In this document: piece after piece, positions 19,142 to 58,883 of the stretch
How positions within the stretch are numbered: the first letter of the stretch is position 1
How the letters are laid out: every line of letters starts with the position of its first letter
DNA from: Thermoanaerobaculia bacterium
GTDB taxonomy: Bacteria > Acidobacteriota > Thermoanaerobaculia > Thermoanaerobaculales > Sulfomarinibacteraceae
Assembly: GCA_027061805.1 (NCBI GenBank)
Contig: JAMOWA010000059.1
Coordinates: forward strand, 124,001 to 188,000
Direction: 5' to 3'
Length of the DNA stretch: 64,000 nucleotides
Made by a program: the position numbers and the translations under genes
Notes under the pieces: model-generated
The model's input: only the letters and a program-made list of their open reading frames with translations
What the model was told of the DNA's origin: nothing
Databases searched by the model: none

Positions 19142-20728
19142 ATGCGGGTTCGCGGCGAAATCTTCCAGGTCCTGGTTGCCGGGGCGGGGGGCGGCCTCCT
19201 CTTCCTGGTCCTGCTGCTCCGTCTGAACCCCGAGATCCACGAGGTGCCGTGGCACCTCATGAGGGCGGCGGTCCTGTGGGGCCTGTGGGGGGCCGCGGTG
19301 CTGGGGCTGCCCCTGGCCCTCGTCGTCCGGGGGATCCGCAGGGCGGGGTGGCTCGGACACCTCTCCTGCTTCCTCCCACAGGTCGCGGCCATCCTCTTCC
19401 TCCTGGCGGCGGGGCTCGCCCGGGTGAACGCCGACATCCACTCGGCCTTCCTCACGGGAAGCGCCCACAGGATCCTGGGGCAGGACGCCGTGGCATGGCT
19501 CGCCACCGCGCTGGTGCTCCTGGGGGTGGACCGGTGGCTCCGGCGGCGCGGCGATCGGCGCCGGATCGGCGTGGCGGCGGCGATCCTGCTGGTGCTTCCC
19601 GGCCTCCGCCTCCTGACGGAGCCGACCCCGCCGGTGGAGCCGGCCCCCTCCGTGGCGCGCTCCCTGGGGCGGGCGAGCCGGGGCCTGGTGGTGGTGGGCG
19701 TGGAGGGGCTCGACCTCAACCTGCTCCTCGCCAGCGCCTCGGAGGGCCGCTACCCGACCCTGTCCCGCCTCGTGTCCGAGGGGGCATGGGGAGCGCTCAG
19801 GCCCCACAGGCCATTCCTCAGGCGGTCCCAGTGGACCTCCGTCGCCGTGGGTGCCTACCCGCGCGCCCACGGCGTCAAGTCGCGCTGGGCCTGGAAGATC
19901 CACGGGGGGTTCCCCGAGCCGGTCCGCCTCCTCCCCTGGACCCCGGTGGGCTCGGCGTGGCTGCTCCCGCGCCCCGTGAGCCGGCGGGTACCGCCCCCGC
20001 CGTCGCTGCTGCCCCCCCTCTGGGAGCGGCTGGCGGCCGGGGGCATGACCGCGGTGGCCCTCGACTGGCCCGGGGTGTGGGCGCCGGGAACCACCACGGA
20101 GCCTCCGGCCGGCGACCGGAGCTGGGGCACCCTGGAGGTGAACCTCCGGCACTCCCTCGACCTCGCCCTCGCACCGTTCCCCGAGGAGGGCGAGGCGCTG
20201 CACCACTCCCTGGAGCGAGACATGGCCAACCTGGCCGCGGCCCGGCGGGCCCGTCCCTCGTCCGACGCCACCGTGTGGCTCCACCTGGGCGCGCTCGCCA
20301 CCGCGCGGAAGTTCCTGGAGCCCCTCGAGGTGGGGGACACCGACGAGCGGGCCATCCAGGAGCTGGTGCTGGAGATGCTCGACGAGGAGCTCGAGCAGCT
20401 CCTCCTGTGGCGGGCCGAGGCCCTCATTGCGGTGGTGTCCCCCTACGGGTACGCGCGGCCGGACTCGTGGGAACGGCTCCGCCGCCTCCTCGGTGGGGGC
20501 GGCCGGTGGCGCACCTCGCCCCGGTCCTGCCCCGACGGCGTGCTCGTGCTCGTCGGGCAGAACGTGGTTCCCGGCACCCGTTTCGAGGAGGCCAGCCTGG
20601 TGGACGTGGCCCCGACCCTGTGCTACCTCCTGGGCCTGCCCGTGGCCCACTCCATGGAGGGCAACGTGATCCGCGGGGCCGTGGAGCCGTCCTACCTGGC
20701 CCGCACCCCCCTCCGCGTGGTGGACTAG
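19142..20728 (+). CDS. membrane-anchored alkaline-phosphatase-superfamily protein, apparently degenerate
   Basis: A 528-residue protein with about four N-terminal membrane segments (roughly residues 10-30, 40-60, 75-95 and 110-145) and a large outer domain of the alkaline phosphatase / type I phosphodiesterase superfamily, closest in style to COG3379. Family landmarks are QWTSVAVGAYPRAHGVKS, PLWERLAAGGMTAVALDWPG and the C-terminal DVAPTLCYLLGLPVAHSMEG. Where catalytic members have a GxDG strand it reads GVEG, and the metal-binding SDHG strand reads SPYG, so the metal site looks lost. A paralogue lies at 55717-57390. A GTG two codons upstream is an alternative start; the gene diverges from pyrK. 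The function is unknown. Confidence 0.75.
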   Translation: MRVRGEIFQVLVAGAGGGLLFLVLLLRLNPEIHEVPWHLMRAAVLWGLWGAAVLGLPLALVVRGIRRAGWLGHLSCFLPQVAAILFLLAAGLARVNADIHSAFLTGSAHRILGQDAVAWLATALVLLGVDRWLRRRGDRRRIGVAAAILLVLPGLRLLTEPTPPVEPAPSVARSLGRASRGLVVVGVEGLDLNLLLASASEGRYPTLSRLVSEGAWGALRPHRPFLRRSQWTSVAVGAYPRAHGVKSRWAWKIHGGFPEPVRLLPWTPVGSAWLLPRPVSRRVPPPPSLLPPLWERLAAGGMTAVALDWPGVWAPGTTTEPPAGDRSWGTLEVNLRHSLDLALAPFPEEGEALHHSLERDMANLAAARRARPSSDATVWLHLGALATARKFLEPLEVGDTDERAIQELVLEMLDEELEQLLLWRAEALIAVVSPYGYARPDSWERLRRLLGGGGRWRTSPRSCPDGVLVLVGQNVVPGTRFEEASLVDVAPTLCYLLGLPVAHSMEGNVIRGAVEPSYLARTPLRVVD

Positions 20729-54018: not shown

Positions 54019-54471
54019 ATGGAATCCGAATGCCCACGCACCGCCGCCCTGGACCTTTCCAGCAGCTTCCAGAACATCGAGGTGGCGGAGAGGGTCCTCG
54101 TCGACCTGTGCAACGGTTCCTGCTGCGGTCAGGACGATCTGGACCGTGTTCTCAGCGCCCTCCGCGAGGGCCTGGCCAACGCCATCCGGCACGGGAATCG
54201 TCTCGTGGAGGAGCGGCGGATCCGGCTGGAGATCGAGGTCACCGGAACGGTCGTGCGGCTGAGGATCACCGACGAGGGGGAGGGTTTCGATCCCGGAACC
54301 GTGCCCGACCCGACTGCGCCCGAGAACTTGCTGCGCCCCAGTGGACGCGGTATCTTCTTCATGAAACAACTGATGGACCGCGTGGAGTTCTCCTCCGCGC
54401 CGGGGGGTGGGACGTGTGTCACCCTGGAGTGCCACATCGGACAACACGACGGGAGTACCCATGAAGAGTGA
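54019..54471 (+). CDS. RsbW/SpoIIAB-like anti-sigma regulatory kinase
   Basis: A 150-residue GHKL ATPase of the HATPase_c_2 type. It has the N box EGLANAIRHGN, G1 DEGEGFDPG and G2 GRGIFFMKQLMD. Such kinases hold a sigma factor or another partner and phosphorylate a Ser on a STAS antagonist. The next gene, overlapping by 11 bases, encodes exactly such a STAS protein. No sigma-F/B-type gene is adjacent, so the final target is open. No ribosome site is visible; a TATAAT lies ten bases upstream. Confidence 0.9.
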   Translation: MESECPRTAALDLSSSFQNIEVAERVLVDLCNGSCCGQDDLDRVLSALREGLANAIRHGNRLVEERRIRLEIEVTGTVVRLRITDEGEGFDPGTVPDPTAPENLLRPSGRGIFFMKQLMDRVEFSSAPGGGTCVTLECHIGQHDGSTHEE

Positions 54472-54799
54472 GATCAAGGATATCGGGGACGTTCGGATCA
54501 TCCGGCTCGCGGGGAAGATCACCATCGGAGCGGGCGACGTGCACATGCGGGAGCTCGTGGACAGGGCCCTGGCCGAGGGGAAGAAGAAGATCCTGCTCGA
54601 CCTGGAAGACGTGAGCACCATCGACTCCTCCGGCATCGGCGAGATGGTGTCGTGCTACACCACCGTGGCCAGGAACGGCGGCCAGCTCAAGCTCCTCCGG
54701 CTCTCCCCGAAGATCAACGACATCCTCCAGGTGACCCAGCTGATCACCGTGTTCGACGTCTTCGACGACCAGCAGGAGGCCATCGCGTCCTTCTCGTGA
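54461..54799 (+). CDS. STAS-domain anti-sigma factor antagonist
   Basis: A 112-residue single STAS domain. The conserved phosphoacceptor segment is DVSTIDSSGIGEMVS, following a typical first strand (VRIIRLAGKITIGAGD). It would be phosphorylated by the overlapping upstream kinase and, when dephosphorylated, release that kinase's partner. A phosphatase for the third role is not seen nearby. ATG chosen for GGGAG upstream. Confidence 0.92.
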   Translation: MKSEIKDIGDVRIIRLAGKITIGAGDVHMRELVDRALAEGKKKILLDLEDVSTIDSSGIGEMVSCYTTVARNGGQLKLLRLSPKINDILQVTQLITVFDVFDDQQEAIASFS

Positions 54800-54860: not shown

Positions 54861-55727
54861 ATGAAGCAGGTCTTCGAGAGCCTCCGCCGGGCCATCGACA
54901 GCGAACTGAGGGTTCTGTTCGGAGGGGACGGCCCCGAGGGGGGGAGGCTCGCCCGGGCAACCCGGGAGGCGGTGCTGTCCCCGGGCAAGCGGGTCCGGCC
55001 CATCCTCATGCTGCTGGTGGGCCGCCTGCTGGCGGTGCCCCCCGGGCGCCTTCTGCGTCTCGGGACGGTGGTGGAGATGGTCCACGCGGCCTCGCTGGTG
55101 CTGGACGACCTGCCCTCCATGGACGATGCGGACATCCGGCGGGGACGCCCCGCCCTCCACCGGGTCCACGGTGAGGCCGTGGCCATCCTCGCCGCGTTCG
55201 ACCTGCTGAGCCGCGCCCACGGCGAGCTTCCCGGGGCCCTCGCGCTGGCGAAGGTGGCCCGGCGCCGGTGGGCGTTGATCCAGGAGGAGCTGGCTGCCGT
55301 GGTGGGGGAGCTCTGCCGGGGCCAGGATCTGGACCTGGCCGGGGAGGCCGCGTCCGTGGAGGACCTGGAGGAGGTCCACGCGGCGAAGACCGGGGCCCTC
55401 TTCGTCCTGGCGGCGCGCTGGGGAGCCTACGCGGGCAACCCCTCGGCCGCCGAACAGGCGGCCGTGGAGGGCTTCGCCCGGAACCTCGGTCTGGCCTTCC
55501 AGGTTGTGGACGACGTGCTGGACGCCACGGGTGACGCGGGAACCATGGGGAAACCGACGGGCCAGGACGAGGGCCGGACCACCTTCGTGGACCTCCTGGG
55601 GGTGGAGGGCGCACGCCGCCTCGCGGCCGAGCTGGGTGCCACGGCCGTGACCGAGCTGGAGCTCTTCGGGGAGCGGGGGACCGAGCTGCGGGCCCTGGCC
55701 GGGGAGGTGGTGGCCCGTGCCTCCTGA
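54861..55727 (+). CDS. ispA: polyprenyl diphosphate synthase (farnesyl/geranylgeranyl type)
   Basis: A 288-residue all-helical prenyltransferase that condenses isopentenyl diphosphate with allylic diphosphates. The first Asp-rich motif is DDLPSMDDADIRRGRP and the second is VVDDVLDATGD; GKRVRPIL binds diphosphate. Length and the four residues between the first Asp pairs fit the IspA group, but chain length (C15 or C20) cannot be fixed. The 3' end overlaps the next gene by 11 bases. Confidence 0.88.
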   Translation: MKQVFESLRRAIDSELRVLFGGDGPEGGRLARATREAVLSPGKRVRPILMLLVGRLLAVPPGRLLRLGTVVEMVHAASLVLDDLPSMDDADIRRGRPALHRVHGEAVAILAAFDLLSRAHGELPGALALAKVARRRWALIQEELAAVVGELCRGQDLDLAGEAASVEDLEEVHAAKTGALFVLAARWGAYAGNPSAAEQAAVEGFARNLGLAFQVVDDVLDATGDAGTMGKPTGQDEGRTTFVDLLGVEGARRLAAELGATAVTELELFGERGTELRALAGEVVARAS

Positions 55728-57390
55728 GGAGCGCCCGGCCCGGGAGACCTGGGAGGAGACGGTGGCGATCCTCCGCCGCCGGGGGTACCTCGGCGGCCGC
55801 ACCGGATGCCCACCACGACACGCCGTGGCCGGGGCGTGGGCCCTCGTGGCGGCCGGGCTTGTCACGCTGGCCGTCGGGGTGTCGGTGGGGGCCACGGTGC
55901 CGTGGCGCCCCGTGTCGCTGGCGGCCACGCTGGTGCTGCTCCTTCCCCTGGTGCTCGTGGCCCTGGGGGCCGTCTGGTGCGTCGTGCGGCTGGCGGAGCT
56001 CCTCAACCGCCGGGGCGTGGGAGCGGGTGCCGTGGCGGCCGGCGGCGCCGTGGTGGCGGTGGTGGGAGCCGTGGCGGCGGCCGTGGTGGCGGGAACGCCG
56101 TGGGTCCCGGATGCCTCACCGCGCTTCGTGGCGGCGGCGGCCCTGGGGGTGGTGGGCGCGGCCCTTCTGCTCCGCGGCGTGGCGCGGGCCATCGTGCTCC
56201 GCGTTCTCCGTTCGAGCCCGGTCGCCCCCGTGGGCTTTCCGGGCCTGTGGAGGGTGACGGTGGCCACCGTGGTGGCGGTGGCCCTCGTGGCGGTGGCGGC
56301 GGCCGTGGTGGGGCGCGGTGACCACGAGGGGGAGGAGGGAGCGCCGCCCCTCCGGGTGCGGGCCCCCGCGGGACGGCTGGCCGTGGTGGCGGTGGACGGG
56401 GCTGCACGCGAGGAGGTGCTCCTGGCCGGGGAGCGGTTTCCCGCCCTGCGGAGCGTGACCTCCTGGAGGTGGGCGCCGCTTGCAGAGCCCTCCCCCTCGG
56501 CGTCGCTCCCCGTCCGCTGGATCACCCTCGCCACGGGTGCCCCGCCCGCGCGCCACGGGGTGGCCACGCTCCGCCAGGTCCGGGTGATGCCGCTGGACAC
56601 CGTGCTCCTGCTCCCGCCGGTGCTCCGGGAGACCCTGGTGGGCCTCTGGGGTCCCCCGGGGGTGGTGGAGGAGGAGACGGTGCCGGCGGCGCACCGGCGC
56701 GTCCCCACCGTGTGGGAGATGGCCTCGAGGGCCGGCGTGGCGGTCCGGGTGCTGGGCTGGTGGGGCAGCTTCCCCCCCCGGCGTGTCCGTGGGGTGGTGG
56801 CCTCGGAACGGTGGCTGCTCACGGGCGAGGCCGGACCGAGGACGGTCTTCCCCCCGGACGCCCGGCTGGGGAACGTGGCGGGGCATGATCCGCTGGACAT
56901 GGACCGCCGGACGGTGGCCGCTCTGGAGGTGGATCCCCTGGACGACGTCTCGCTGGTGATGGCCTACTTCCCCGGCTGGTGGCTGGAGGAGCGGGACGGC
57001 ATGAGGCCTCCACTGGTGCTGGCGCGGGCCATGGAGCCCCACCTGGACCTCCTGGCCGGGGCCGTGGAACGGCTCGTGGAGGCGGGCTTCCCCGTCTGCC
57101 TGGTGGGCCTGGAGCCGGGGGATGGGGGGTGGGTGGCGTGGTCGGTCCCCGGTCCCCCCGCGGCGCCCGTGGGCCCCCCGGAGCTCGTGAACACCTGGCT
57201 CGACGCCCTCGGCCTGCCCCCCTCGGCAGGGGTGGATGGGGGGGTCCGGAGGGACCTCTCGGGCGTGGAGGGGCCGCCGCCTGCGGAGGCCCTGGCCTAC
57301 GGTCCCCCACCGCCCCTGGCCTCGGCCGCCCCATCCGGCGAGGGCGCGGCCCAGCTGGAGCTGCTCAGGTCCCTCGGCTACCTCCAGTAG
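55717..57390 (+). CDS. membrane-anchored alkaline-phosphatase-superfamily protein, apparently degenerate
   Basis: A 557-residue protein with about five or six N-terminal hydrophobic segments (to about residue 205) and a COG3379-like outer domain. Landmarks are LAVVAVDGAAREE, WITLATGAPPARHGV, VPTVWEMASRAGVAVRVLGWWGSFPPRRVRGVVASERW and the C-terminal QLELLRSLGYL. The DG of the first metal strand is kept, but the SDHG strand expected in the second half reads LVGLEPGD, so the metal site looks broken. It is similar in plan to the 528-residue protein at 19142-20728. The GTG start overlaps the prenyltransferase gene, suggesting a lipid-linked role, which is inference only. Confidence 0.75.
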   Translation: MPPEERPARETWEETVAILRRRGYLGGRTGCPPRHAVAGAWALVAAGLVTLAVGVSVGATVPWRPVSLAATLVLLLPLVLVALGAVWCVVRLAELLNRRGVGAGAVAAGGAVVAVVGAVAAAVVAGTPWVPDASPRFVAAAALGVVGAALLLRGVARAIVLRVLRSSPVAPVGFPGLWRVTVATVVAVALVAVAAAVVGRGDHEGEEGAPPLRVRAPAGRLAVVAVDGAAREEVLLAGERFPALRSVTSWRWAPLAEPSPSASLPVRWITLATGAPPARHGVATLRQVRVMPLDTVLLLPPVLRETLVGLWGPPGVVEEETVPAAHRRVPTVWEMASRAGVAVRVLGWWGSFPPRRVRGVVASERWLLTGEAGPRTVFPPDARLGNVAGHDPLDMDRRTVAALEVDPLDDVSLVMAYFPGWWLEERDGMRPPLVLARAMEPHLDLLAGAVERLVEAGFPVCLVGLEPGDGGWVAWSVPGPPAAPVGPPELVNTWLDALGLPPSAGVDGGVRRDLSGVEGPPPAEALAYGPPPPLASAAPSGEGAAQLELLRSLGYLQ

Positions 57391-57411: not shown

Positions 57412-58311
57412 CTACCACTCCCCCGGTGCGGGCGGGACGGGGACGAGGATGAGCTCGCCGTCGTGGGTGCCCGGCGGGAGGCCCCGGACCTCGAGCCCCA
57501 CGAGGTGACCCCCCAGGTCTGCGAGCGTCCGCGTCGCGTCCACCCCGGCGGTCGTGCGCGGTGCGAGGGCAACGATCCGGCCCCCTTCGTCGACCTCCAC
57601 CCGGACCGGTATGGGTGCCCCGGTACGCTCCTCCACGCCGGGAAGCGTGAAGGACACCGTCCGGCCCGCCACCACCAGCTCCATCCGCGTCGCGGTCTTC
57701 CGGAAGGCGCGGACCGGCGTTCGCGCCGCCCCGGCAGGCCTCTGTGCGCCGGCCTCCGGCAGCCGGGGAACCGGGGTCGCGGCCTCCCCGGGCGGCCGGG
57801 GAAGAGGCCCAACGGGCTGGAGCGCCTCGGGCTCGGGGAGAGGGGGGGGCGAGGGGGGGGTGGCCATCAGGTGCTCCACGGCCCCCACCAGCTCCCGATC
57901 GGCCATGTGGACGGGCCCGTTGGACGGGGCTGCGGCAGGGGCCGGAGAGGCCGCTGGTGGCGTGGGTGCGCTGGCCACCGTGGCCGGTGACGGGACCTCG
58001 CGACGGGCCAGCTGGACCATGACACCGACCCCGATCACCAGCACCGCCGCCGTGGCCAGGAGACGAAGAACCGGCGGGGATGGCCGCTGTGGAGGTCCCA
58101 TGCGGAGTGGGTCGGTGAGACGGTCGAGCCCGGCCGGGGCGGATTCCTCCGCCGTGCTCCGGAGGAGCCGGCGGACGGCCCGGAGGCCGTCGAGCTCGTG
58201 ACGGAGCTCCGGGTCGTGGTCGAGCCGGTCCTCCAGCTCCCGGGTGGCGGCCTCGTCCAGGTCGCCGTCAAGGTACCGGCTGAGCCATTCGGTGGGGTCG
58301 TGCGGGATCAT
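57412..58311 (-). CDS. probable anti-sigma factor with membrane span
   Basis: A 299-residue protein. The N-terminal helical part (EWLSRYLDGDLDEAATRELEDRL and onward) resembles cytoplasmic anti-sigma domains but lacks the His and Cys zinc ligands. One membrane segment follows (about residues 83-101, LLATAAVLVIGVGVMV), then a long Pro and Ala-rich linker and a C-terminal beta-rich domain outside. The ATG overlaps the sigma-factor stop as ATGA. Layout and position suggest it holds that sigma factor at the membrane until an envelope signal arrives. Confidence 0.75.
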   Translation of the reverse strand: MIPHDPTEWLSRYLDGDLDEAATRELEDRLDHDPELRHELDGLRAVRRLLRSTAEESAPAGLDRLTDPLRMGPPQRPSPPVLRLLATAAVLVIGVGVMVQLARREVPSPATVASAPTPPAASPAPAAAPSNGPVHMADRELVGAVEHLMATPPSPPPLPEPEALQPVGPLPRPPGEAATPVPRLPEAGAQRPAGAARTPVRAFRKTATRMELVVAGRTVSFTLPGVEERTGAPIPVRVEVDEGGRIVALAPRTTAGVDATRTLADLGGHLVGLEVRGLPPGTHDGELILVPVPPAPGEW

Positions 58312-58883
58312 GGCTTCAGCTCCTCCCTGAGGGCGGTCCTGGCCCGGGCCAGCCGCGAGCGGACGGTTCCCACGGGTACGGAGAGCACCCGCGCGATCTC
58401 CTCGTAGCTCAGGCCCTCCCCGTCGCGGAGCCACACGACCACCCGCTGGTTCCGGGGAAGGCCGGCCAGCGCACGGTCGACCCGGTCCAGGGCCTCGCGG
58501 GCGGCGGCCCTCCGCTCGGGGCCGGGCCTGGGGTCGGCCACCTCCGCAGGGGGGCCTGTCTCGTCGCCGGCCCGCTGCCCCGCCAGGGGAAGCTCGCGGC
58601 GCTTCCGGCCCCTCCGGCTCCGCAGGTGGTTCCAGGCCACCTGGAAGACCCACGTCTCCACCTTCGCCTCCCCGCGAAACCCCGGCAGCCCCTTCCACAC
58701 GCGCAGGAAGATCTCCTGGCAGGCATCCAGGGCCTCCTCGGGGTCGCCCGTCAGGCGGCGGCAGAGCCGCCAGACGGGGTCCCGCAGCCGCACGTACACC
58801 TCGTCGAAGCTCAGGCCCACGGTACGAGTGTGCCACGGCGCGGCCGGAAGATCCCAGGGTGTGGCCGGAGGGTCCATGTCCAC
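58308..58883 (-). CDS. ECF-type RNA polymerase sigma factor
   Basis: A 191-residue sigma-70-family protein with only regions 2 and 4. Region 2 includes VYVRLRDPVWRLCRRLTGD, the DACQEIFLRVWKGL core and FRGEAKVETWVFQVAWNHLR for -10 recognition; region 4 has LPRNQRVVVWLRDGEGLSYEEIARVLSVPVGTVRSRLARAR across its helix-turn-helix. The start is uncertain: GTG here, an ATG two codons later, or a GTG giving VGLSFDEVY. It is coupled to the anti-sigma gene downstream. A self-regulated promoter is expected but not recognised. Confidence 0.88.
   Translation of the reverse strand: MDMDPPATPWDLPAAPWHTRTVGLSFDEVYVRLRDPVWRLCRRLTGDPEEALDACQEIFLRVWKGLPGFRGEAKVETWVFQVAWNHLRSRRGRKRRELPLAGQRAGDETGPPAEVADPRPGPERRAAAREALDRVDRALAGLPRNQRVVVWLRDGEGLSYEEIARVLSVPVGTVRSRLARARTALREELKP

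Follow-up and report, generated by a model that had tools for sequence, protein, structure and literature searches.

Here we describe a gene in a stretch of 64,000 nucleotides from a Thermoanaerobaculia bacterium (contig JAMOWA010000059.1 of assembly GCA_027061805.1, from a genome of 3.10 Mb in 68 contigs), which we call the window and whose positions are counted from its first letter. The gene, at 55717-57390, belongs to a family, here family A, that is a conserved pseudoenzyme whose catalytic residues were lost early in Acidobacteriota, and its coupling to prenyl diphosphate synthesis, proposed in an earlier prediction made from the window alone (the original prediction), is real and ancient. 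A pseudo-site beside a prenyl-precursor gene makes it more likely that the protein binds or senses something than that it acts as an enzyme. The features of the gene and of the adjoining synthase gene are:

55717-57390, + strand: family-A pseudo-phosphodiesterase gene, GTG start, 557 amino acids
54861-55727, + strand: IspA2, second polyprenyl diphosphate synthase of the genome, similar to geranylgeranyl diphosphate (GGPP) synthases (PF00348, 162 bits; motif HAASLVLDDLPSMDDAD)
55717-55727, + strand: overlap of 11 nucleotides, the GTG lying inside the synthase gene, whose stop codon ends 11 nucleotides further on
55771-55791, + strand: LRRRGYL (consensus LRxxGYL), conserved N-terminal motif, on the cytoplasmic side by prediction
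55816-56307, + strand: five predicted transmembrane (TM) helices, residues 34-59, 68-98, 103-124, 135-166 and 175-197 (AlphaFold2 model, charge pattern)
56368-57291, + strand: extracytoplasmic domain, by prediction, of nucleotide pyrophosphatase/phosphodiesterase (NPP) type (alkaline phosphatase superfamily), residues about 218-525 (model compared by Foldseek and VIA-align 2)
56392-56400, + strand: VDG, with the retained catalytic-site residue Asp227
56497-56520, + strand: SASLPVRW, former nucleophile segment, with Leu for Ser/Thr at the aligned column
56965-56982, + strand: YFPGWW, former DxxxH metal strand, with Trp for Asp in the window's own family
57100-57123, + strand: LVGLEPGD, former SDHG metal strand, residues 462-469
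57364-57387, + strand: LRSLGYLQ, conserved C-terminus common to family A and intact relatives

The listing of open reading frames bore out the coordinates, frame and GTG start originally proposed, together with the overlap of the GTG with the prenyltransferase gene, and the SDHG metal strand is indeed missing, LVGLEPGD occupying the position of SDHG or ADHG in the intact relatives. The description of the protein as degenerate holds for the nucleophile, for all metal-ligand His and for two of the three ligand Asp, which are gone, but not for the first catalytic-site Asp, Asp227, which is still there; the window protein thus has one of the six metal ligands of the catalytic PF01663 set and no nucleophile.

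The loss extends to the whole of family A. We aligned 51 family-A proteins of the class with 13 TPR-type proteins and six intact five-helix (5-TM) relatives, and in these 19 positive controls the nucleophile Ser, the DxxxH motif and the SDHG His were always present, the SDHG Asp was kept in 18 (the other having Asp-to-Ala) and the C-terminal His was recovered in 16 by the same alignment. In family A the nucleophile Ser, the SDHG His and the C-terminal His were each found in 0/51 proteins, with an aligned Thr at the nucleophile column in eight, all from the bacterial family coded f6, and an aligned DxxxH His in a single row, probably through an alignment slip. The three site aspartates are retained to different degrees, the first (D1, Asp227) in 50/51, the remaining row being truncated, the second (D2) in 46/51 and the third (D3) in 30/51. 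However, the window's own family has Trp at the D2 column in 5/5 members (WW) and Leu at D3, so that D1 is the sole ligand left in the window protein, and its lineage, as judged from this alignment, is eroded further than the rest of family A. In 20 of the 31 phylum genomes that carry the family outside the class, Pro stood at the nucleophile column in 20/20, the SDHG His was found in 0/20 (Pro in 19), and D1, D2 and D3 were kept in 20, 20 and 14 of the 20, respectively. Where intact enzymes read S...DxxxH...SDHG, the consensus of family A reads P...YLPGxD...DPGR, with P419 in 48/51 and the Asp of YLPGxD in 46/51 class members, and with DPG at the former SDHG in many class members and in most phylum members of the family. 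Since the site is lost in 51/51 class and 20/20 other-class members, the loss is ancestral, and the replacement residues are themselves conserved. An intact metal site, the result named beforehand as the one that would tell against the prediction, was found in none of the 71 family-A proteins and in none of the 19 proteins of family B, to which the comparison protein discussed below belongs. The 51 class proteins come from the 64 genomes that matched at 150 bits or more; the table of site residues leaves out G004 and G030, where the frame is broken or divided between contigs, as well as G145, G130, G060, G062, G063, G064, G066, G069, G079, G135 and G140, and T_L015 and T_L027 were also left out of it, T_L015 being left out of the tree of families A and B as well.

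The family has been kept under constraint. Those 64 genomes were found among 148 of the class, 29 more having weaker matches only, of about 74-115 bits (eight of these weak-match proteins, read by eye, were six intact 5-TM enzymes and two degenerate proteins resembling family B), and across the phylum 56/396 genomes gave a match at E<=1e-30, the 31 outside the class belonging to 13 family codes. Orthologues from the window's own family share 43-49% identity across the full length, 16 alignment columns are invariant, and full-length open frames are found in nearly all members. The ratio of non-synonymous to synonymous substitution rates (Nei-Gojobori dN/dS) was 0.14-0.23 in five family-A pairs, which indicates purifying selection, and 0.10-0.17 in three synthase pairs.

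An AlphaFold2 model of the window protein, built from a 17-member family alignment, reached a mean predicted local distance difference test score (pLDDT) of 77 and a predicted template-modelling score (pTM) of 0.74, its confidence being low to middling in the helix part and mostly above 80 in the domain (pLDDT blocks of about 72-96). Among the Foldseek matches listed, the top structures in the PDB were phosphonoacetate hydrolase and ENPPs (E about 1e-5), and VIA-align 2 gave Z 20.9 against ENPP3 (3.0 A over 252 residues) and Z 20.1 against Xac NPP, so that on the model, with Z of about 20 to several NPPs, the protein has the alkaline phosphatase superfamily fold of the NPP branch. PF01663 scored 20.1 bits, under the 23-bit Pfam cut-off, and was matched at E<=0.01 by 8/17 family members; NCBIfam gave no match for the window protein, and when the PDB was searched by sequence, neither the protein nor the family profile hit anything significant, so the fold assignment rests on models. 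With the PF01663 enzymes (type I phosphodiesterase/nucleotide pyrophosphatase: ENPP1-7, Xac NPP and phosphonoacetate hydrolase) the window protein shares the fold of residues 218-525, the motif order, the first site Asp and a TG...HG segment, but it differs from them in having no nucleophile, no ligand His, a five-helix anchor and a score below the Pfam cut-off. Charge counts in families A and B showed loops 2-3 and 4-5 to be positive and loops 1-2 and 3-4 not clearly so, a pattern that fits a predicted orientation with the N-terminus in and the domain out. The LRxxGYL motif was present in 34/34 newly read class members and in almost every phylum member when these were read by eye. The N-terminal LRRRGYL (55771-55791) and the C-terminal LRSLGYL (57364-57387) are alike, yet the predicted topology has the membrane between them.

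The intact 5-TM phosphodiesterases of the class (L140-L142, L144, L145 and L147) resemble family A in their N-terminal helices (by eye), in the domain and, in 5/6, in a C-terminal L..xGY[LI], but unlike family A they have both the DxxxH and the SDHG site complete. Read by eye, they showed no LRxxGYL, and no synthase, RsbW or STAS match was found beside their genes. They are probably the catalytically active equivalents of both degenerate families, A and B.

Examination of 55 class loci showed the synthase gene adjacent and on the same strand in 39, while two loci lay at contig edges (G009 and G027). In 38 of these pairs, measured from the candidate start nearest the synthase stop within 70 residues of the motif (L048 was left out), 21 overlapped, 15 had starts within 100 bp and two were more than 1 kb apart, and the choice of the nearest start means that some overlaps may be shorter; a GTG at -11 recurs in the four other linked loci of the window's family. 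An ExbB/TolQ-like gene (by eye) lies between synthase and family-A gene in 2/39 loci, both from the family coded f17 (L119 9397-10556, L120 996-2471). Outside the class a same-strand synthase match was found no more than 50 bp away in 13/20 loci, at 1.2-1.6 kb in two and at about 4 kb in two more. The two genes are also inherited together, since in 37 genomes of the two families nearest to the window a synthase match of at least 50% identity accompanied family A in 9/10 genomes and occurred in 0/27 without it (Fisher P = 8e-8, a value that ignores relatedness); in the tenth genome with family A the gene stands at a contig end.

IspA2 matches PF00348 and carries both Asp-rich motifs of polyprenyl diphosphate synthases (HAASLVLDDLPSMDDAD and FQVVDDVLDATGD). 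The genome has three PF00348 genes and one squalene/phytoene synthase gene, and the copy in xseA context (xseA by eye) carries HTYSLVHDDLPALD where the linked copy carries HAASLVLDDLPSMDD. Farnesyl diphosphate (FPP) synthases have an aromatic residue five positions before the first DD. At that position all 54 linked copies (37/37 and 17/17) have Ala, Ser or Cys, and among unlinked copies Tyr or Phe is found in 5/15, including the FPP-type copy of the same genome, and Ala, Ser or Cys in the other 10. By this chain-length rule the small residue suggests that the linked synthase is of GGPP rather than FPP type. The NCBIfam equivalog scores of IspA2 lie under the cut-offs for CrtE (163.5 against 460 bits) and for FPPsyn (201.7 against 275). 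In the synthase tree the linked copies of the class group with the copies of f6 and of the family coded f8 (support 88), and all linked copies stand apart from the FPP-type set (support 99).

A dead enzyme that has long been kept, and whose pocket was remodelled and not randomly eroded, most likely binds something, and since it is coupled to a dedicated prenyl synthase, the process that it serves is probably the supply of prenyl lipids; the structural or binding role first proposed is to that extent favoured, by the loss of the site throughout the family together with purifying selection. A system of comparable plan is known in YejM (YejM/PbgA/LapC) of Enterobacteria, a lipid-sensing pseudoenzyme of alkaline phosphatase superfamily origin that controls lipopolysaccharide (LPS) synthesis and regulates LpxC jointly with LapB. 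Its membrane domain has five TM helices. PMC12444477 describes a membrane domain joined to a periplasmic domain that is homologous to LtaS/EptA and lacks the metal ligands; family A has, by prediction, a like combination of a five-helix membrane domain with a periplasmic pseudo-hydrolase domain of the alkaline phosphatase superfamily. By this analogy we tentatively favour, at somewhat less than an even chance, a non-catalytic periplasmic lipid-binding sensor like YejM/PbgA/LapC that regulates or anchors prenyl-lipid synthesis. Starting from the fold, the catalytic-residue loss, the selection, the gene coupling and the co-inheritance computed here, we infer what the protein binds, how it meets the synthase and which way the control runs as follows. 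An anchor of five helices with its N-terminus inside would carry the periplasmic NPP-fold domain, whose site has been rebuilt into a different conserved pocket, and the protein would be made together with its dedicated GGPP-synthase-like enzyme through overlapping or near-touching genes. On the periplasmic side the pocket or the membrane face may bind a lipid that is phosphorylated or prenylic, and the anchor and the cytoplasmic LRxxGYL helix might then signal to, or recruit, the prenyl synthase or an enzyme using its product, much as YejM/PbgA/LapC reads LPS and sets LpxC.

Other explanations would account for parts of these data. A decaying pseudogene of a former phosphodiesterase would agree with the loss of most catalytic residues, but the dN/dS values rule it out, and with full-length frames in nearly all members, the invariant columns and a loss that is phylum-wide we find this scarcely credible. 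Residual or new catalysis, in which D1, D2 and D3 hold Mg2+ or Ca2+ for a slow phosphatase or transferase reaction, finds encouragement in the retention of these residues within and outside the class, which makes cation binding or weak metal-dependent chemistry possible outside the window's own family, and in the Mg2+-dependent phosphatase activity reported for YejM, in its periplasmic domain (PMC12444477); it is nevertheless improbable, because the nucleophile Ser and the SDHG His are found in 0/71 proteins and because the window protein, with Trp and Leu at D2 and D3, has a single ligand left.

More serious is the possibility that the protein is a membrane scaffold only, its LRxxGYL helix docking the soluble GGPP-synthase-like enzyme, and perhaps the product user, at the inner membrane under an NPP domain that is no more than a ligand-free structural cap. 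The overlapping genes, the near-constant N-terminal motif and the conserved folding core would all be expected of such a protein, whereas a pocket that is not drifting (P419, the Asp of YLPGxD and DPG at the old SDHG) would not, nor would the retention of LRxxGYL in f6 genomes where the genes have parted, and we hold this explanation to be possible but on the whole unlikely. Slightly more doubtful still is operon hitchhiking, by which an envelope-biogenesis gene would sit beside the synthase merely for common expression. The f6 genomes speak for it, adjacency being absent in 12/12 loci inspected although both genes are still kept, with the unlinked family-A gene between SecA/M50-protease and S9-peptidase genes (names by eye); against it stand the adjacency across 12 class family codes and most loci sampled elsewhere in the phylum while the outer neighbours change, and the co-inheritance described above. 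In two f6 loci (L056 1-6329, L136 11910-17604) a gas-vesicle-like set of genes, identified by eye as GvpA-like and GvpF/L-like, is found at a distance of a few kb from the family-A gene.

Several observations weigh against a sensor of prenyl lipids as well. No synthase gene lies nearby in 14/55 class loci (12 of f6, G046 of f8, and G142 of the family coded f4, whose upstream region was read by eye), and a synthase match is missing in 3/20 loci outside the class, so that the linkage is not obligatory; the family-A gene is itself missing from 27/37 genomes of the two nearest families, and is therefore not essential to every member. Carboxylates persist at the three site positions in many family-A members, as counted above, and an aligned His stands at the DxxxH column in 4/20 members outside the class. 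The likeness of family A to YejM is one of plan, no sequence relation between the two having come up: the closest fold listed for family A is NPP and not sulfatase or EptA, its neighbouring gene encodes a prenyl synthase where an LPS function might have been expected, and the Pfam scan of the window protein and its family returned PF01663 only, with no YejM-type match. YejM, EptA and LtaS are not among the Foldseek and VIA-align 2 matches listed, which is no exclusion. Even if the sensor reading were true, the pair could act in any process that uses prenyl lipids.

The original prediction had set this protein beside a second one encoded in the window:

19142-20728, + strand: family-B degenerate 5-TM phosphodiesterase, of a separate conserved family (PF01663 35.6 bits, above cut-off; model; tree)

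The shared domain plan was confirmed, both AlphaFold2 models placing an NPP-type domain after five long helices at the N-terminus (for the family-B protein pLDDT 85, pTM 0.84, with Xac NPP as top match at E 2.8e-11). The claim of two paralogous pseudoenzymes of one family stands in that both are degenerate NPP-type proteins on a 5-TM anchor, but not in that they belong together, for they fall into separate old families. BLASTP between the two proteins gave no significant similarity (best E 0.59), and in a quick maximum-likelihood tree of 350 columns the 17 A and 19 B proteins each formed one clade (SH-aLRT 99 and 100), results that rule out recent paralogy. The joint clade of A and B against 14 TPR-type proteins had a support of 44, so the losses in A and B may be independent or may go back to one inactive ancestor. 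On this sequence comparison each is an old, conserved pseudoenzyme family and the two are not a recent pair. Family B resembles A in its five helices and degenerate domain and is near-universal in relatives, with matches at E<=1e-6 in 57/59, some possibly to other paralogues; it appears to be kept more widely than A among them. Unlike A it forms its own clade, has SPYG for SDHG (Ser/Ala-Pro-Tyr/Phe-Gly in 19 aligned proteins, with Pro434 and Gly436 invariant), is without the LGYL C-terminus and has another neighbourhood.

Upstream of the synthase gene lie a kinase of the HATPase_c_2 type and, beside it, a STAS antagonist, which make an RsbW/STAS partner-switch pair. They are listed here with Rce1-like CPBP protease genes from other loci:

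54407-54799, + strand: STAS-domain anti-sigma factor antagonist (PF01740, 58.9 bits), conserved in the cluster
54082-54471, + strand: RsbW-like anti-sigma factor kinase (PF13581, 89.8 bits; 5' end not fixed), conserved in the cluster
L124 5871-7109, L130 10637-11761, L055 13531-14379 and L108 938-1831: examples of the Rce1-like gene (PF02517)

RsbW is present in 34/39 linked class loci, normally with STAS (32/37, plus the window and L041), and absent from 15/15 loci of unlinked prenyl synthases. Neither RsbW nor STAS gave a match in the 20 loci outside the class, which rules them out as the core of a phylum-wide unit and makes them a class feature only. In 22/32 linked loci with RsbW the Rce1-like gene precedes RsbW and has its strand; in some families an opposite-strand gene (no Pfam match, one copy scanned) stands between the two. 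In the window's cluster an Rce1-like gene was ruled out, the two PF02517 copies of its genome being elsewhere. Besides this pair, two genes at 57412-58883 run toward the family-A gene from the opposite strand, one for an ECF sigma factor (PF04542, PF08281) and, downstream of it, an anti-sigma-like one (weak zf-HC2).

A bolder reading of the whole arrangement, which we consider rather doubtful, is a phylum-wide unit of prenyl-lipid control in which a dead five-helix NPP receptor would sense a prenyl or phospho-lipid on the outer side of the inner membrane and would set the activity of a dedicated GGPP synthase, one class adding the RsbW/STAS switch and often the Rce1-like protease. Were it true, the unit would parallel YejM as a regulator that arose independently, out of another branch of the alkaline phosphatase superfamily, with isoprenoids in the place of LPS, and the Rce1-like gene would leave room for bacterial protein prenylation and processing.

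We found no earlier description of the pair or of the family in the open-licence literature, subscription journals and preprints lying outside the search. If the sensor reading is true, family A would be a second independent case after YejM, tied to a GGPP-type synthase, and would suggest that dead hydrolases recur as membrane-lipid sensors; it would also give a handle on the regulation of isoprenoid supply in a large and little-studied phylum, and two proteins that would pass as phosphodiesterase-like become testable candidates for binding proteins.

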